Origin: a virus
Strand: one strand, 5' to 3'
Virus record (IMG/VR): IMGVR_UViG_3300021131_000038
Span: 1-30,266 of that record
Length of the DNA stretch: 30,266 bases
The notes below the pieces were generated by a model. The model made no database searches. It was not told where the DNA came from and saw only the letters and a list, made by a program, of their open reading frames with translations. Of the stretch, positions 18,969 to 27,455 are shown in pieces. Each line of letters begins with the position of its first letter. The stretch's first letter is position 1. The position numbers were made by a program, and so were the translations under genes.

Positions 18969-19111
18969 CAATCGGTGTCCCAGTTGATGTTCGCCTCGTC
19001 GAGCGCGATCTCGTCCCAGATCTCTTGATTGATTTCGTCGTTGTAGATTTCCCAGCCGACGACGTCATCGGCGTCGAGTGCGGGATTGGTGAAGTCGAAT
19101 ACGATGGTCAT
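18968..19111 (-). CDS. Small acidic protein between GapR and TerS, 47 aa
   Basis: This 47-codon frame starts at ATG 19111, overlapping the GapR stop as ATGA, and its TGA overlaps the terS start as TGATG. The protein is very acidic, with DFTNPALDADDVVGWEIYND followed by repeated Asp/Glu. It could be a DNA-mimic or a regulator of its basic DNA-binding neighbours, but this is only a guess from charge and position. The overlaps on both sides are the main evidence that it is real. Confidence 0.65.
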   Translation of the reverse strand: MTIVFDFTNPALDADDVVGWEIYNDEINQEIWDEIALDEANINWDTD

Positions 19112-19386
19112 GACTTGATCTCCACAGTTGCGGCAAACTTGCCCAAGGGCGTTTCCTTGAAGCCCTCGACGGCGCTCATGTACAGGTCGAAGATGGTCTG
19201 GTTCTGCTCACGTTGGTGCTGGGGCTTCTTGCGCTCGGCGACGACCTTCTTGAGGATCTTGACGTCGTATCCGCTGCCCTTAGCCTCCTTGTAAATCTCT
19301 GATATGTCGAGCGAAATGGCTGCTTTCTCGTCTTCCATTTTCTCGATGCGTTGGACGATGCTGGCGATATGGTTATTGCTAATCAT
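19108..19386 (-). CDS. GapR-like (DUF2312) nucleoid-associated protein
   Basis: This 92-aa protein matches the GapR pattern: I..IVQRIEKMEDEKAAISLDISEIYKEAKGSGYDVKILKKVV (about 8-51), then a basic loop with ERKKPQHQRE and a final helix FDLYMSAV. In Caulobacter GapR binds overtwisted AT-rich DNA and supports replication and topoisomerase action. The length is close to the usual 89 residues. It is the first gene of the leftward late operon, with a candidate promoter at 19420-19448 and an AGGGG ribosome site. The phage copy may bind phage DNA or interfere with host GapR. Confidence 0.85.
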   Translation of the reverse strand: MISNNHIASIVQRIEKMEDEKAAISLDISEIYKEAKGSGYDVKILKKVVAERKKPQHQREQNQTIFDLYMSAVEGFKETPLGKFAATVEIKS

Positions 19387-19448: not shown

Positions 19449-19480
19449 TCGTGCCGGATTTGCGGGAGATTGCGGCCCAC

Positions 19481-19595
19481 CGAAATTATTTTTCAAAAAA
19501 GTTATCCACAGGCTTGTAGAGGGGGTTTACAGGCGAAATTATTTCGCATAAGATCAATTCATGGTCGCTGATGACCGCAGCCTTCGGAGCCCACC
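19481..19595 (+). promoter_or_regulatory. Early promoter cassette 1
   Basis: Parts in order: a CGAAATTATTT half-site (19481-19491); a DnaA box TTATCCACA (19502-19510); -35 TTTACA (19526-19531); a 17-bp spacer holding the perfect palindrome GCGAAATTATTTCGC (19533-19547); -10 TAAGAT (19549-19554); and a GGTC-loop-GACC stem (19563-19576) near the expected 5' end of the RNA. It drives the first early gene, whose ATG has GGAG six bases upstream. Unlike cassettes 2 and 3 it lacks a hairpin between the DnaA box and the -35. Confidence 0.8.
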
Positions 19596-19793
19596 ATGAC
19601 CGCCACCTACCTCGCCCTCACCATCTTCTCTGACGCCGCCAACACCGTTGTGGATCGCGTTGTTCAGTTTGAGGATGGCTCTTTCTGGCTGTCCAAGGCT
19701 GCCGAGCTTGTCGGCCATCCGGTCAAGGAAGGCGACATCATCCTCGGTGTCCGGGTTGACCGGATTGGCGACGAAGTTGAGGCGTGGGGCTGA
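19596..19793 (+). CDS. Early small protein 1, 65 aa
   Basis: First gene of the rightward early operon, starting 41 bp downstream of the cassette-1 -10 box and using GGAG six bases before ATG. The protein reads ATYLALTIFSDAANTVVDRVVQF and GHPVKEGDIILGVRVDRIGDEVEAWG, a small alpha/beta or beta-barrel-like protein with an acidic C-terminal half. No family is recognised. Early position, small size and lack of homology fit a host-takeover or anti-defence protein, but there is no direct evidence. Confidence 0.65.
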   Translation: MTATYLALTIFSDAANTVVDRVVQFEDGSFWLSKAAELVGHPVKEGDIILGVRVDRIGDEVEAWG

Positions 19794-19828
19794 TCCCCAC
19801 GCATCACCACAACCTGATGGAGATTGAT

Positions 19829-20092
19829 ATGATCAAGCAAGTTAAGACCAAGAATGCTGGCATCCTCGGCATCATGCGCAGCGCCGCCTTCGTGACGGGC
19901 TTCAAGGAGGGCCAGACGGGCAAGCACCTGCGGTACGACGCCTATCAGTACGACATCAATAGCCAGTGGGACTATGAGCGCGGGCGCCTGCTGGGCCTGA
20001 TGTTTGACGGCCCCCTGAAGGTGGGCAAAGCCGTCAATCGCGGCGCCGCCCTGTATCTTGCGCTCGCCTTCCGGCAAAAAGAGATCCTGTAA
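19829..20092 (+). CDS. Early small protein 2, 87 aa
   Basis: ATG 19829 follows the exact leader GATGGAGATTGATATG, whose GGAG lies six bases before the start. The protein has AAFVTGFKEGQTGKHLRYDAY and WDYERGRLLG, a Gly/aromatic spacing (GF..G..G...Y.....W.YERGRL) loosely like small ribosome-modulation-factor or CrpP-type proteins, then a C-terminal helix with NRGAALYLALAF. That resemblance is weak and is offered only as a lead. There is a 35-bp gap from gene 1 and no separate promoter. Confidence 0.65.
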   Translation: MIKQVKTKNAGILGIMRSAAFVTGFKEGQTGKHLRYDAYQYDINSQWDYERGRLLGLMFDGPLKVGKAVNRGAALYLALAFRQKEIL

Positions 20093-20097
20093 AAAAG

Positions 20098-20202
20098 TTA
20101 TCCACAGGATGCGAAAATGCTTCGCACCCCCTTTACAGGCGAAATTTCTTCGTGCTAAGAGTTGTGCATGGTCGCTGATGACCTGAACTGATGGAGATTG
20201 AC
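20098..20202 (+). promoter_or_regulatory. Early promoter cassette 2
   Basis: Parts in order: DnaA box TTATCCACA (20098-20106); hairpin TGCGAA-AATGC-TTCGCA (20110-20126); -35 TTTACA (20132-20137); a spacer with CGAAATTTCTTCG; -10 CTAAGA or TAAGAG (20155-20161); the GGTC-GCTGAT-GACC stem (20170-20183); and the ribosome leader ATGGAGATTGACATG ending at the next start. It aligns part by part with cassettes 1 and 3. Confidence 0.8.
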
Positions 20203-20481
20203 ATGGACTTCCGCTTTTACACCCTCGGCGACACTCTCCCATCCCTCGCCTTCACCGCCACCGGCGTGGATCTGTATGACCACATGTGCGAGGCCATCGT
20301 GGACCACGTCCTCGGCGCCGACCCCTACTCCGAGACTGCGGCGCGCGACCTCATGGAGATCGTGGCGATGGAGACCCCGGACGGCGAAGAGTACATCGAG
20401 GCCGTGCTCGTGCGGGGCAAGCTGGTCGGCTCAATGGACGCCCCGTTCGCCCTTGATCCCAGCGAATATTTGAAGATCTAA
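20203..20481 (+). CDS. Early small protein 3, 92 aa
   Basis: ATG 20203 is fixed by the conserved ATGGAG leader six bases upstream. The protein is acidic (DFRFYTLGDTLPSL, then VDLYDHMCEAIVDHVLGADPY, then EIVAMETPDGEEYIEAVLVRG), with an alpha/beta pattern and no recognised family. It is the only gene between cassettes 2 and 3, so it can be seen as a self-contained promoter-gene unit. The codon usage is GC-rich like the rest of the phage. A DNA-mimic or inhibitor role is possible from charge but not shown. Confidence 0.65.
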   Translation: MDFRFYTLGDTLPSLAFTATGVDLYDHMCEAIVDHVLGADPYSETAARDLMEIVAMETPDGEEYIEAVLVRGKLVGSMDAPFALDPSEYLKI

Positions 20482-20485
20482 AAAG

Positions 20486-20592
20486 TTATCCACAGGGTGC
20501 GAAGGATCTTCGCACCCATTTGACAAACGAAAAAACTTCGTGCTATGAAAAATCACGGTCGAGATAGAGACCGCAACCTGATGGAGATTGAT
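20486..20592 (+). promoter_or_regulatory. Early promoter cassette 3
   Basis: Parts in order: DnaA box TTATCCACA (20486-20494); a perfect 10-bp stem GGGTGCGAAG-GAT-CTTCGCACCC (20495-20517); a consensus -35 TTGACA (20520-20525); a spacer with ACGAA-AAAAC-TTCGT; -10 TATGAA (20544-20549); a GGTC-loop-GACC stem (20557-20572); and the GATGGAGATTGATATG leader. It has the best -35 of the three. The hairpin could also end transcription from cassette 2. Confidence 0.82.
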
Positions 20593-20892
20593 ATGACCGC
20601 TTCCAACACCGTCGCCGCCGTCGAAGTCTACCTCGCCGCCAAGGCGCAGTCCGACGCCGCCGAGACCGTTCTCAAGGCCGCCAAGGCCGACGTCGTCGCC
20701 ATCGTGGGCGGCTACGGTTTCCTCGAAGGCGAGACCGCCGACCTCGACGTGGCCGTGCAGGCCCGCTCCTCAATCAACGAAAAACTCCTGCTCCAGTTCC
20801 TGACGCAGGAACAGATCGACGCTTGCAAGGTCGAGGGCGCCGCTTACCCCGTCGTCCGCATCAAGGCCAAGAAGGTCCGCAAGGCCGCCTGA
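20593..20892 (+). CDS. Early small protein 4, 99 aa
   Basis: ATG 20593 follows the exact repeated leader. The protein has an Ala-rich amphipathic helix (VAAVEVYLAAKAQSDAAETV, then LKAAKADVVAIV), a short GGYGFLEGETADLDVAVQ strand segment, and a basic C-terminus (VVRIKAKKVRKAA). Helix-rich plus basic tail suggests nucleic-acid or protein binding. No family is recognised with confidence. It is the first gene after the strongest of the three early promoters and is followed by three more genes with short gaps or overlaps. Confidence 0.65.
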   Translation: MTASNTVAAVEVYLAAKAQSDAAETVLKAAKADVVAIVGGYGFLEGETADLDVAVQARSSINEKLLLQFLTQEQIDACKVEGAAYPVVRIKAKKVRKAA

Positions 20893-21890: not shown

Positions 21891-22535
21891 TCAAAACGGA
21901 ATTGCGTCGTCTATGTGCGCCTTGCTATCAGGAATGGCGTCCAACGGGTCTCTAGGCGGCCCTGAGACGCGCTCCACCTGCGCGCCGGGGGAGCTGGCCT
22001 TCACGGCCGCCAGCTCGGGATAGGCCGCCAACATCCTCGCCACCTCGGACATCGTGTAGACTTCGACGTGCCTGCCCTGCGCGGCCACCAAACGCAGGTC
22101 CAGATCGTTTTTAACGACCGCCACAACCGTGCCGTCGGGCGTGACGGCCTCCCACACCTCCGGGGCCAGCAAATGGGCTCCAGCGGCCTCCGCAGCTCGA
22201 TCCAGAGCCCTCCACGCCTTGATCATCCGCTCGGCCTCGATCTTCACGTCCTGAAGGTTGCCATGCCAGATCGCCCGATTGGTCTTGTAGCGTTGCCTGT
22301 CAAACTTTTCACGCAGTTCACGATCTACAAGGAGGCGCAGGCGGTCGCGGCCCCACTTCTCCTCCATCGCGATGGCGACCATGTCGAGGTCGTCGAGATG
22401 CTCCCGGCCAGAAATGTAGGTGCCGGGGGTCTCGTGCCAGTCCGGGAAGTCCCGATCGGTCGTGGGCACGCCAAAGTGCGTGCGCGTGCCCTTGGGCCAC
22501 GGCTCGAAGTCATGCGTCTTGGGCGCCTTAGCCAT
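21891..22535 (-). CDS. Replication-operon protein with SSB-like C-terminal tip
   Basis: This 214-aa protein starts at ATG 22535, overlapping the stop of the preceding gene, with GGGAG upstream; a TTG 15 bases earlier is unlikely. The body is mainly helical and charged (EKWGRDRLRLLVDRELREKF, then IEAERMIKAWRALDRAAE), with a mixed region at about 120-165. The last residues, HIDDAIPF, closely match the acidic DDDIPF tip of bacterial SSB, which docks replication and repair proteins. No OB-fold is evident. It may compete with host SSB or recruit its partners to phage DNA. The family is not recognised. Confidence 0.65.
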   Translation of the reverse strand: MAKAPKTHDFEPWPKGTRTHFGVPTTDRDFPDWHETPGTYISGREHLDDLDMVAIAMEEKWGRDRLRLLVDRELREKFDRQRYKTNRAIWHGNLQDVKIEAERMIKAWRALDRAAEAAGAHLLAPEVWEAVTPDGTVVAVVKNDLDLRLVAAQGRHVEVYTMSEVARMLAAYPELAAVKASSPGAQVERVSGPPRDPLDAIPDSKAHIDDAIPF

Positions 22536-23148
22536 TGGGGATACTCCCAATAACCTTCAACCCTTTAATTTTGGTAGACCTGTTCCGGGTCTCATGCGCC
22601 AGAACCTGAGAGTAAATCAGGTGGCCAATCGTGGCCTCCGCATCAAGCTCGTTGATGCCAAACTTGTGAGCCAGCAATGCCGGGGCATAGCGGCCCTGCT
22701 TGCGCGTCTGCGGAAAGATCGACGACGGAGCAGGCGTGTACCACTGGTCATTGATGAACTTGAGCATGTCCGCGACTATAGGGCCGGTCAAGATTTTTCC
22801 AACGGGCTTTTTTTCCTTCTCTTTGCCAATATCATTCCAAGGTTTGAATTGAGGCAGAATGGCGGGCTCGCCCTTGATAGTCGCCACGACCCACTCGGCC
22901 ATGCCGTGATAATGCTCCTGCAATACGATCACATCACTCGTATGAGCCAGCGTTTCAGTCTCAAGATTGTAGCCAAGGTAGAACGCCTTCTTGGGCGCCG
23001 CAGGAGCATCCCGATACAATTTGTAGTTCTGATATTTTCCACACAGCGACATGGTCGATGCGTGCAATATCCATTCGCCGCTCTTCGCAACTTGCCGCTG
23101 TCCATCCGTCCAGCGCATCTTCTTTCCGCCAATCACTATGCTATCCAT
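22528..23148 (-). CDS. Protein sharing the primase-helicase C-terminal domain
   Basis: This 206-aa protein has an N-terminal part (1-120) without recognised motifs and a C-terminal part (about 126-203) strikingly like residues 641-716 of the primase-helicase: both have DML, then QTRKQGRYA, then QVL, then TK(I/M)xGLKVIGSI. ATG 23148 follows GGGAG, and a longer frame from 23298 would run through the promoter. It may be a DNA-binding partner or regulator that uses the same docking domain as the helicase. It is the first gene downstream of the origin-like block. Confidence 0.7.
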   Translation of the reverse strand: MDSIVIGGKKMRWTDGQRQVAKSGEWILHASTMSLCGKYQNYKLYRDAPAAPKKAFYLGYNLETETLAHTSDVIVLQEHYHGMAEWVVATIKGEPAILPQFKPWNDIGKEKEKKPVGKILTGPIVADMLKFINDQWYTPAPSSIFPQTRKQGRYAPALLAHKFGINELDAEATIGHLIYSQVLAHETRNRSTKIKGLKVIGSIPNG

Positions 23149-23178
23149 GACACTCTCCCGTAAGTTGAGACGGCGGAG

Positions 23179-23208
23179 GTTGTAACATACCGTAAACCAT
23201 ACGGTCAA
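23179..23208 (-). promoter_or_regulatory. Promoter with inverted-repeat operator for 22528-23148
   Basis: On the minus strand TTGACC (23208-23203) and TACAAC (23184-23179) are 18 bp apart. Between and overlapping them lies the perfect inverted repeat ACCGTA-AACCA-TACGGT (23189-23205). A bound repressor would block polymerase. GCGGAGGTTG (23173-23182) overlaps the -10 and recurs at 29012. Confidence 0.6.
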
Positions 23209-23234
23209 TTCCGCATGTCGCTCGTCTAATGAAA

Positions 23235-23329
23235 CGCGGGGGAGCCCTGTAGCGGAAGCGAAAGGGCGATCCCGCGCAACGTCACCGCCCAACCGCACAG
23301 TCCTTGGCGCGGCTCCGTGACGCCGCGCC
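23235..23329. other. Two strong hairpins beside the origin block
   Basis: The first structure nests CGCGGG (23235-23240)/CCCGCG (23271-23276) around GCCCT (23244-23248)/AGGGC (23263-23267). The second is GGCGCGGC (23306-23313)/GCCGCGCC (23322-23329) with an 8-base loop. No open frame with a ribosome site covers them. They may be a small structured RNA, or hairpins exposed when origin DNA is single-stranded. The whole gap 23149-23643 contains no gene. Confidence 0.5.
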
Positions 23330-25298: not shown

Positions 25299-27455
25299 CT
25301 AGTCGATTGATCCAATTACCTTGAGGCCTTGCATCTTCGTGTTCTTGTCCACGACCTCGTAGGACAAAACTTGGTTGGAGAGCCACGTCTCCACCATCAT
25401 ATCGACCACCTTTTCGGGGAGATCGAATTGCGCGCTCAGGACCGCCGAGGCGTAACGTCCCTGCTTGCGGGTCTGGGAATAGCTTGAGAGGGGCCGCCCG
25501 GCGAACCACGCCACCCTGATCACGTTCAGCATGTCGTGGCACACCTGCTTCTCTGGCCAGACGCTCTTGGGCGCCGCCTGAGCATTGGCCTGCGCAGCGT
25601 AGAGACTGCCCTCGCCGGTGATGTCGTTGACAGTCACCTTCTTGAGTTCAAAGGGCTGGCGCCACCCGTCCTCGGCGCTCTTGATCTTGCGGGCGTGGAT
25701 CTCGCCAATGCTCTCGCCCTCCTCGCGCTCAATGCTCAGGAGGAAGTCACCGGCGCCGTCAAAGACCGTGGAGCCCCGCAAGTTGCCCGCCCGGCTCGTG
25801 TGGTGGACGCCCACGACGGTGGCCCCGAAGGTCGTGCGGACGGCGTCGCAGGCGCCAATGAAGAGGGTCATGTCCTTCTGTAAGTTCTCGTCGGCGCCCG
25901 GCAGGACGCGGCTGACGGTGTCCACGAAGACGGTGACGGGCATCTCACCGGCGACCTTGCCAATCTGCGCCACGGTGCGCAGGAGCCGCTCGACGTCGGC
26001 CTGCGCCATGAAGTTGATGGTCTGCTGGATCAGGTAGAAGGGCAGGCCGCGCACCTTGACGCCAGCCTCCTTCTCCCACGCGAGGATGCGGGTGCCGATG
26101 TCGCCCACGCCCTCGGACGAGATGTAGACGACGGGGCCGGTCTTGTTGATCTTGCGCCCAAACCAGTCCGGCCGCTCCGAGCAGATCGACAGGCCCATGC
26201 CGATGGTGATGAAGCTCTTGCCGCAGCCCGGAGGGCCGTAGACGAAGCCAAGAGCCGTCTCGATCATGAGCTTGTCGATCAGATACTTGGGCTTGGGCAG
26301 GGACAGGATGCCCTCGACGTCGAGGAACTCAAATAGATCATCGGTCGTTTGTCTAATTACATCGACGAAAAGCTCGCCGGTTTCTGGATCAACCTTGTAG
26401 AATTTGACGGGCTCGGGCTCATCTGCCTGATCGAAAGGGCGGCTAGGGCGCTCCACCTTGGCGTGCTCGGCCACCTTGGTGTCCCACTGCTCAATGGCGT
26501 TCTCCCACTTGTGGCGAAACATCGAGATGCCCCGCCCCTCGCGCTCCAGACGGTCGGCGTTGGACTGCGGACCCGTCAGGCGGCTCTTCACCTTGCGCTC
26601 ATAGGTGGCGAAGCTCTCAAGCATATGCGTCTCTGACAACGGGCCAAGATCTCCGGGGCAATCGCGCTTGAGGTCCACGACCGCCGCCCACACGAGCTTG
26701 GTCATGTAGTCCTCGCGGCCATCGACGATATTGCCAAAGTTATCCACAGCTTTATTTGGTGATGCAGTTTTTTCGCCTGTTACACGGTTCACGCCAGATG
26801 ATCCGCCGTGCTCTGCGGCCAGCTTCGAGATCTCATCGCAGAGCCACTGCGGGGCCGTGGCGATCTCCATTTCCCACGGCGCGCAGCCCTCCTTCCAGCG
26901 GTATGGTGTGCCGCTCTGGTGCATGCTGGGCGGCATCATGGCGAAGCCCCCCTGCCCACGGATGTCCACGCCAATGCTTGTCTTGCAGGTGGGTGGGGTC
27001 CACCCGAGCGGCGCCCTGAAAAAGAGCTGCACGCCACCTCCGCCGGTCTCCTGCTCAACCGTCTCCAGCTCGCCCGCGCTCTGTTTCATGTGAAACATGT
27101 CGTCCCACCACGCCCGCGATCGGACGTCCTTGTGCAGGTCGAGGTCCACGACGAAGATCCCGCCAGAGCAGGCGCCGGTGATCAGGCCCATGTTGACGCG
27201 GCGTGCGTGCTCGCCGGTCTCGCCATACCAACGCTCGAAGGTGAAGTCCGGGACCAGCTCGTGCTCCAGCTCCCGCCACTTCGGGAGTGCCGGGCGCTTC
27301 CACTGGTTCTTGTTTTCCCTGTGGCTCATGGCCGGGACGACTTGCATTCCGCCGCCTCGGTACATGCGCGCCCACTCCGACGGCTCCGCAAAATCTGGGT
27401 CGAACGTGGCGTTCATAATAATTGTTCCATCATTTCCATCTGAAGGCATCGACAT
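25299..27455 (-). CDS. PrimPol-RecA-like primase-helicase
   Basis: The 718-aa product joins two enzymes. Residues 15-215 look like a bifunctional primase-polymerase domain, with GLITGACSGGIFVVDLDL (metal ligands D104/D106), QETGGGGVQLFFR and VDIRGQGGFAMMPPS. Residues 378-610 form a RecA/RepA-like ATPase (AAA_25): Walker A GPPGCGKS (407-414), Walker B VTVFVDT (507-513) and HHTSRAGNLRGSTVF (551-565). Residues 641-716 are shared with the 22528-23148 protein. It should prime and unwind phage DNA. ATG 27455 lies 11 bp after the upstream stop; ATG 27416 is an alternative. Confidence 0.88.
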   Translation of the reverse strand: MSMPSDGNDGTIIMNATFDPDFAEPSEWARMYRGGGMQVVPAMSHRENKNQWKRPALPKWRELEHELVPDFTFERWYGETGEHARRVNMGLITGACSGGIFVVDLDLHKDVRSRAWWDDMFHMKQSAGELETVEQETGGGGVQLFFRAPLGWTPPTCKTSIGVDIRGQGGFAMMPPSMHQSGTPYRWKEGCAPWEMEIATAPQWLCDEISKLAAEHGGSSGVNRVTGEKTASPNKAVDNFGNIVDGREDYMTKLVWAAVVDLKRDCPGDLGPLSETHMLESFATYERKVKSRLTGPQSNADRLEREGRGISMFRHKWENAIEQWDTKVAEHAKVERPSRPFDQADEPEPVKFYKVDPETGELFVDVIRQTTDDLFEFLDVEGILSLPKPKYLIDKLMIETALGFVYGPPGCGKSFITIGMGLSICSERPDWFGRKINKTGPVVYISSEGVGDIGTRILAWEKEAGVKVRGLPFYLIQQTINFMAQADVERLLRTVAQIGKVAGEMPVTVFVDTVSRVLPGADENLQKDMTLFIGACDAVRTTFGATVVGVHHTSRAGNLRGSTVFDGAGDFLLSIEREEGESIGEIHARKIKSAEDGWRQPFELKKVTVNDITGEGSLYAAQANAQAAPKSVWPEKQVCHDMLNVIRVAWFAGRPLSSYSQTRKQGRYASAVLSAQFDLPEKVVDMMVETWLSNQVLSYEVVDKNTKMQGLKVIGSID
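26740..26748 (+). promoter_or_regulatory. DnaA box inside the primase-helicase linker
   Basis: TTATCCACA lies in a 14-bp match (AAAGTTATCCACAG, 26737-26750) to the three early cassettes. It falls in the codons for the linker (about residues 236-239) between the primase and ATPase domains. A fourth DnaA-binding site is possible; chance cannot be excluded by eye. Confidence 0.4.

Follow-up and report, generated by a model that had tools for sequence, protein, structure and literature searches.

Three cassettes that head a small-gene operon in the 30.3-kb viral record analysed here (59% G+C; hereafter the window) repeat an early-promoter module that is real and conserved, and that recombines. 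For the full model, a modular early promoter with a DnaA-type site, a dyad operator and a 5' hairpin, carried on recombining cassettes, we estimate a probability of roughly 0.6. The operon occupies 19.5-21.5 kb of the plus strand, between the structural genes of the left part of the window (terminase, portal and capsid, on the minus strand) and the replication genes of its right part, which encode a PrimPol-helicase, a RuvC-like resolvase and a PD-(D/E)XK nuclease. The elements of each cassette are a DnaA box without mismatch, a promoter of sigma70 type whose -35/-10 spacer holds a dyad, and a stem where the transcript is predicted to start (Table 1).

Table 1. Features of the three cassettes and of the neighbouring small genes in the window.
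Feature	Position	Strand	Remark
Degenerate upstream dyad/AT-rich element CCGAAATTATTTTTC	19480..19494	+	Conserved 5' of box in first cassettes
DnaA box, cassette 1	19502..19510	+	TTATCCACA within AAAAAAGTTATCCACAGG
Promoter 1	19526..19554	+	TTTACA-17-TAAGAT
Operator-like dyad, promoter 1 spacer	19533..19547	.	GCGAA-N5-TTCGC
5' RNA stem-loop, cassette 1	19563..19576	+	GGTC/GACC; predicted transcript start
Small gene, 65 aa	19596..19793	+	Unknown
Small gene, 87 aa	19829..20092	+	Conserved last gene of unit 1
DnaA box, cassette 2	20098..20106	+	Directly 3' of preceding gene's stop codon
Pre-35 hairpin, cassette 2	20107..20128	+	With dyad GCGAAAATGCTTCGC at 20111-20125
Promoter 2	20132..20161	+	TTTACA-18-TAAGAG
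Operator-like dyad, promoter 2 spacer	20139..20153	.	GCGAA-N5-TTCGT
5' RNA stem-loop, cassette 2	20170..20183	+	
Small gene, 92 aa	20203..20481	+	Conserved last gene of unit 2
DnaA box, cassette 3	20486..20494	+	Directly 3' of preceding gene's stop codon
Pre-35 hairpin, cassette 3	20495..20517	+	GGGTGCGAAG/CTTCGCACCC; with dyad at 20499-20513
Promoter 3	20520..20549	+	TTGACA-18-TATGAA
Operator-like dyad, promoter 3 spacer	20527..20541	.	ACGAA-N5-TTCGT
5' RNA stem-loop, cassette 3	20556..20573	+	CGGTC/GACCG
Small gene, 99 aa	20593..20892	+	Conserved first gene behind last cassette
Helix-turn-helix protein, 73 aa	21328..21549	+	Operon end
GapR-like DNA-binding protein	19108..19386	-	Divergent from cassette 1; restricted to clade I

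A preliminary description of this DNA had proposed a threefold cassette at 19.5, 20.1 and 20.48 kb, and its anatomy is largely borne out. Exact copies of AAAGTTATCCACAGG stand at 19498, 20094 and 20482 on the plus strand, far above chance (five matches with up to three mismatches against 0.29 expected in the window), and the box TTATCCACA by itself has four exact matches where 0.07 would be expected. The palindrome described for the promoter spacer, generalized as CGAA-N5-TTCG, is present in all three cassettes, and its five matches in the window (0.83 expected) all fall inside them. As described, a hairpin precedes the -35 element in cassettes 2 and 3 only, where it holds a second copy of the spacer dyad; the distance from box to -35 is 24, 34 and 34 bp in cassettes 1, 2 and 3. 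The ATGGAG leader likewise ends cassettes 2 and 3, as CTGATGGAGATTGAYATG, while cassette 1 differs in ending with GGAGCCCACCATG, and the one to four small genes said to follow each cassette were counted as two, one and four in the same order. The promoters needed amendment: -35 and -10 elements are present in each, but the spacers of cassettes 2 and 3 measure 18 bp, and under E. coli sigma70 rules cassette 1 alone scores as sigma70-like, with cassettes 2 and 3 weak.

To place the window among its relatives we used the exact hairpin-form pattern, which matched 10 stretches from 9 contigs, and a box plus dyad promoter pattern, which matched 21 stretches plus one metagenome-assembled contig. Rescanning the contigs by promoter and dyad, with the box not required, gave 51 distinct cassettes, the window's three included, and more distant members (G080, G084, G092 and G100) were added by a search with the DnaA domain-IV protein discussed below. 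Cassette number varies among contigs, up to four. The contigs form two clades: clade I, which resembles the window and in most members has a GapR-like gene divergent from cassette 1, and clade II, without that gene. The cassette region had no nucleotide match among known annotated phages, no Rfam match and no tRNAs, and no integrase was found in 15 records. The GapR-like (PF10073) nucleoid protein is 73-97% identical among clade I contigs and was not found in the clade II records searched; among 14 control genomes PF10073 matched in Caulobacter only. Given this gene, and the occurrence of domain-IV homologues in Rhizobium and Bradyrhizobium phages, the phage host is probably alphaproteobacterial.

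The spacer dyad is the core element of the cassette, with a gap of exactly 5 bp in all 51. Such a fixed gap, with half-sites spaced by one helical turn and located between the -35 and -10 elements, is what a repressor operator would be expected to show. The second copy lies 5' of the -35 element: in later cassettes it is part of the hairpin, and in first cassettes it takes a degenerate, AT-rich form 5' of the box. The best candidate reader of the dyad, judged by position alone, is the 73-aa helix-turn-helix protein, which is present in both clades.

The stem placed by the preliminary description at the RNA 5' end starts 7-9 nt after the -10 element in every cassette of the family. It takes the form CGGTC/GACCG or TGGTT/AACCA, with a loop of 3, 6 or 8 nt, or of 4 nt in some folds, and it shows compensatory changes. 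Of the cells, 93% are paired, and the covariation was reached in none of 500 shuffles, which ignore the kinship of the sequences. The variable loop together with the covariation argues that this stem acts as an RNA structure. The pre-35 hairpin folds at -18.4 kcal/mol with its flanks in cassette 3 (z -4.5) and is weaker in cassette 2. It is found mainly where a co-directional gene lies 5', and first cassettes do not have it; this distribution hints at a role in termination or insulation. As a canonical terminator it was unsupported: a terminator scan called none at the hairpin, which has no clear U-run and a weak T-run.

Relatives were then searched for the cassette followed by swapped small genes, whose absence the preliminary description had named among the grounds for discarding its proposal; swapped genes were found, and shuffling is strongly supported. 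A unit consists of a cassette, one or more variable genes and a conserved last gene, and the genes that immediately follow 49 cassettes fall into 19 families. The 65-aa gene that follows cassette 1 in the window follows cassette 2 in another contig (L006), and other gene families change slots likewise. Leaders downstream of the stem are more alike before the same gene (identity 0.88) than before different genes (0.61; 0 of 2000 permutations, a test that ignores shared contig ancestry, the slot changes being direct observations), whereas the 45 bp 5' of the -35 element follow the slot (0.80 vs 0.65). Since leaders track genes and upstream halves track the slot, the exchanges lie inside the cassette, between promoter and leader. 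An unrelated, probably alphaproteobacterial phage family thereby joins the T4-like phages as a case of promoter-borne gene shuffling, and the exchange junction is placed in the promoter/leader region.

The E. coli DnaA box consensus is TTWTNCACA, in which base five sets the quality, and TTATCCACA belongs to the strongest class (PMC5835720). A TTWTNCACA box at the promoter, as expected of a DnaA-regulated promoter, is what the cassettes contain. The box had been described as fixed, which holds for the window, where it is exact in all three cassettes, but across the family it is not obligatory: 42 of the 51 cassettes have it, 39 as exact TTATCCACA and three as TTATNCACA variants (TTATTCACA in two, TTATACACA in one), while TTWTNCACA is missing from the other nine. 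This frequency is inflated, since most contigs were first found by the box; in the contigs that were retrieved through the domain-IV gene instead (G080, G084, G092 and G100), five of nine cassettes have it intact, one of these five (in G092) in reverse. Single-base variants occur in five cassettes (TTATTCACA twice, TTATACACA, TTATCTACA in L100 and TTATCCATA in G084), three of them at the permissive base five (p ~0.01 by our own arithmetic, if changes are even). The box lies 23-24 bp from the -35 element without the hairpin and 34-41 bp with it (observed values 23, 24, 34, 37 and 39-41). Helical phasing of box and promoter found no support, the distance not being locked to one helical face. Taken together, the box is real, and it is probably functional and read by a DnaA-type protein, of host or phage.

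An opposing view, that the box is an inherited passenger of recombining cassettes of which only promoter, dyad and stem matter, seems to us unlikely. It would account for the nine boxless cassettes, which include the last cassettes of clade II with a second dyad in place of the box, and for G084, which carries the domain-IV gene and has no intact box in its cassettes. Yet the box is kept at about 100% (in a set selected for it) while the adjoining stretch up to the -35 element varies freely, its substitutions favour the permissive base, and the box of G092 is in reversed orientation, apparently an independent gain.

Family records also encode a protein of 167-200 aa with the DnaA C-terminal DNA-binding domain (PF08299) and without the AAA+ domain, and thus no full-length DnaA initiator. 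PF08299 scores are 54-66 bits against a cut-off of 31.5, and the signature is GRDHTTV or NRDHTTV; these are observations on relatives, the window ending before the gene. The gene was found in all four searched records that reach about 11-19 kb past the cassettes (G001, G006, G011 and G014). The window ends about 10 kb past its cassettes, short of the gene's position, and by comparison with these records its own phage presumably carries the gene too. Aligned with domain IV of E. coli DnaA (1j1v; E 1e-5), the protein keeps the equivalents of R399, R407, Q408 and D433-T436 (numbered by alignment position), which we take to be base-contact residues in the 1j1v structure. In its AF2 model the mean pLDDT is 73, exceeding 86 over the domain, and the best structural match is that same complex of DnaA domain IV with DnaA-box DNA (rmsd 1.2 A, TM 0.78 by target). 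With domain IV alone and 1j1v as best match, this protein of the relatives should bind the cassette box and is a likely reader of it that the family itself provides.

The box-and-promoter arrangement is not peculiar to this family. Scanning viral contigs for a box 5' of TTGACA-N16-18-TATAAT returned 37 and 59 loci by orientation (L130-L214), compared with 2 loci with the box downstream of consensus promoters and none in a shuffled 11-mer control. The boxed loci make up 49 nucleotide groups, from many unrelated phage contigs; the boxes lie 5-35 bp upstream of the promoters, with spacings to the -35 element clustering at 5-9 and about 27-34 bp. This suggests that a box upstream of a promoter is a common and overlooked arrangement in phages; apart from lambda, a limited literature search brought up no description of a phage early promoter with a DnaA box. 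A phage-encoded DnaA was rejected as the general explanation, PF08299 being absent from all 50 boxed-promoter records (0 of 50), which points to host DnaA. Host DnaA is known to stimulate lambda transcription via the beta subunit of RNA polymerase (PMC8203912), and DnaA is a transcription regulator in Caulobacter (PMC3193534).

The tie to host DnaA that the preliminary description had put forward is plausible and gains strength from the general enrichment of boxes 5' of phage promoters. Some cassettes can do without the box, however, and the domain-IV protein is a second candidate ligand. It is quite possible, if short of probable, that host DnaA is the only protein served by the box, acting as a co-activator or a sensor of the host replication state, and that the domain-IV protein has nothing to do with the cassettes and works at host oriC or in the replication of the phage. 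Besides the lambda precedent, boxed promoters are widespread in phages without the gene, and the idea that a domain-IV gene implies boxes in other phages was rejected on three records, known phages with domain-IV-only proteins and no box array. Against this separation, box and gene occur together in all four family contigs that are long enough and in the distant G100 (domain-IV protein 27% identical), while both the cassette boxes and the gene are missing from MW202675, the nearest relative known. We hold tentatively, as a possibility rather than an expectation, that a captured DNA-reading domain of DnaA has become a private transcription factor wired through the boxes into a shuffling early-gene cassette; host DnaA and a motorless phage DnaA would then compete at the same promoters, tying early expression to the host replication initiator, and the box upstream of strong promoters would be a recurrent, undescribed phage design. 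Whether phages time early genes by host DnaA or by their own copy of its DNA-binding domain is a testable question.

Two further roles were weighed for the boxes, five of which occur in a 61.7-kb genome. That they titrate host DnaA, so that three to five strong boxes per phage genome copy stop host initiation and their promoter position is incidental, is improbable. The boxes are of the strongest class and would multiply with phage DNA, and E. coli offers a known case of titration by boxes linked to promoters (PMC5835720), but in the 61.7-kb genome four of the five share one strand and one position within the cassettes, and the bias upstream rather than downstream of promoters (37 vs 2) is unexpected of a passive sink. 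Seeding of phage replication, by DnaA-assisted opening at the transcription bubble, had been raised at the outset and is now very improbable. Box, AT-rich tract and promoter do recall the transcriptional activation of orilambda (PMC8203912); however, there is one box per cassette, three times in 1 kb, with no cluster of boxes or unwinding element, five boxes in 61.7 kb fall short of the box or iteron cluster with unwinding element of a phage replication origin, and the phage encodes its own PrimPol-helicase and RuvC. A fourth TTATCCACA in the window, antisense in the PrimPol gene (26740-26748), keeps its position in at least eight related contigs, in a stretch that has few synonymous changes; it was rejected as part of the system, as coding constraint may suffice for its conservation.

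Returning to the modular early promoter, we infer promoter activity, DnaA binding, a dyad binder, the sign of regulation and RNA stabilization along the following lines. Each cassette would be a self-contained early expression module in which host RNA polymerase initiates at the sigma70-type promoter. A dimeric, probably phage-encoded repressor would read the CGAA-N5-TTCG dyad between -35 and -10 as well as, in many cassettes, the second copy 5' of -35; were it the 73-aa helix-turn-helix protein of the operon, the outcome would be negative feedback. The DnaA box, 23-41 bp 5' of the -35 element, would receive a DnaA-type protein, host DnaA at entry, and the phage domain-IV protein, once made, could read the DNA without an AAA+ motor and replace or compete with host DnaA. 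The 5' hairpin of the transcript may protect or insulate the RNA end, with the ribosome site next to it, and near-identical cassettes bracketing short gene units would allow recombination to swap small genes between slots and phages.

The cassette had been likened to the promoter early stem-loop (PeSL) elements described in T4-like phages (Arbiol 2010; Comeau 2014; via PMC4503421 and PMC3950731); it works like a PeSL and is no member of that family. As summarized in those two sources, both combine an early promoter with a stem-loop, repeated before small genes and serving as a shuffling junction. In our family, too, promoter and stem-loop lie in intergenic regions (in the window, cassettes 2 and 3 have the pre-35 hairpin and cassette 1 has none), and different small genes follow, with exchange at the cassette. 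PeSLs reside in T4-like phages, whereas the genome here is not that of a T4-like myovirus with T4 early promoters: terminase and portal match other families, and replication is of the PrimPol type. The cassette also differs from the PeSL, as far as these summaries go, in its spacer operator dyad, DnaA box and 5'-terminal RNA hairpin, and in a pre-35 hairpin without clear U-run.

Other systems share single aspects of the cassette. The SAS/ESAS elements of cluster K mycobacteriophages, in the account excerpted from PMC3203893, are also conserved and have inverted repeats upstream of small genes of different families, but the ESAS repeats are of 17 bp with spacers of 4-13 bp and adjoin the start codon, and neither a DnaA box nor a promoter operator of fixed gap nor a stem at the RNA 5' end is part of that account; the start-associated sequence of cluster K is GGGATAGGAGCCC, and the leaders of our family are CTGATGGAGATTGACATG or GGAGCCCACCATG. 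In the haloarchaeal virus HGTV-1 (PMC3950731) a promoter-like box and an inverted repeat precede most ORFs of one genome arm, and shuffling has been proposed, although the motif is an archaeal TATA-type promoter without DnaA box. Lambda with orilambda (PMC8203912) resembles the proposed role in that host DnaA acts on phage transcription, but has no repeated cassette and no phage-encoded DnaA domain IV; conversely, Rhizobium phage RHph_N28_2 encodes a domain-IV (PF08299) protein, as our family does, and genomes of this kind, judged on three records, lack an array of promoter DnaA boxes.

Some further observations concern single genomes. The distant contig G100 (L272/L280) has a box with a GCGAA-N5-TTCGC promoter twice, at 20.9 and 21.7 kb; the GGTC/GACC 5' stem is missing there, and the leader differs. 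In Bradyrhizobium phage OP596614 (L223, 14316-16433), genes for DnaA domain IV, DUF2312 (GapR) and DUF1376 stand together, which suggests a recurring replication or regulation module. Finally, the C-terminal 80 residues of the window's PrimPol (22540-22779, minus strand) have a 42% identical paralogue in the adjoining 256-aa ORF (22528-23298).
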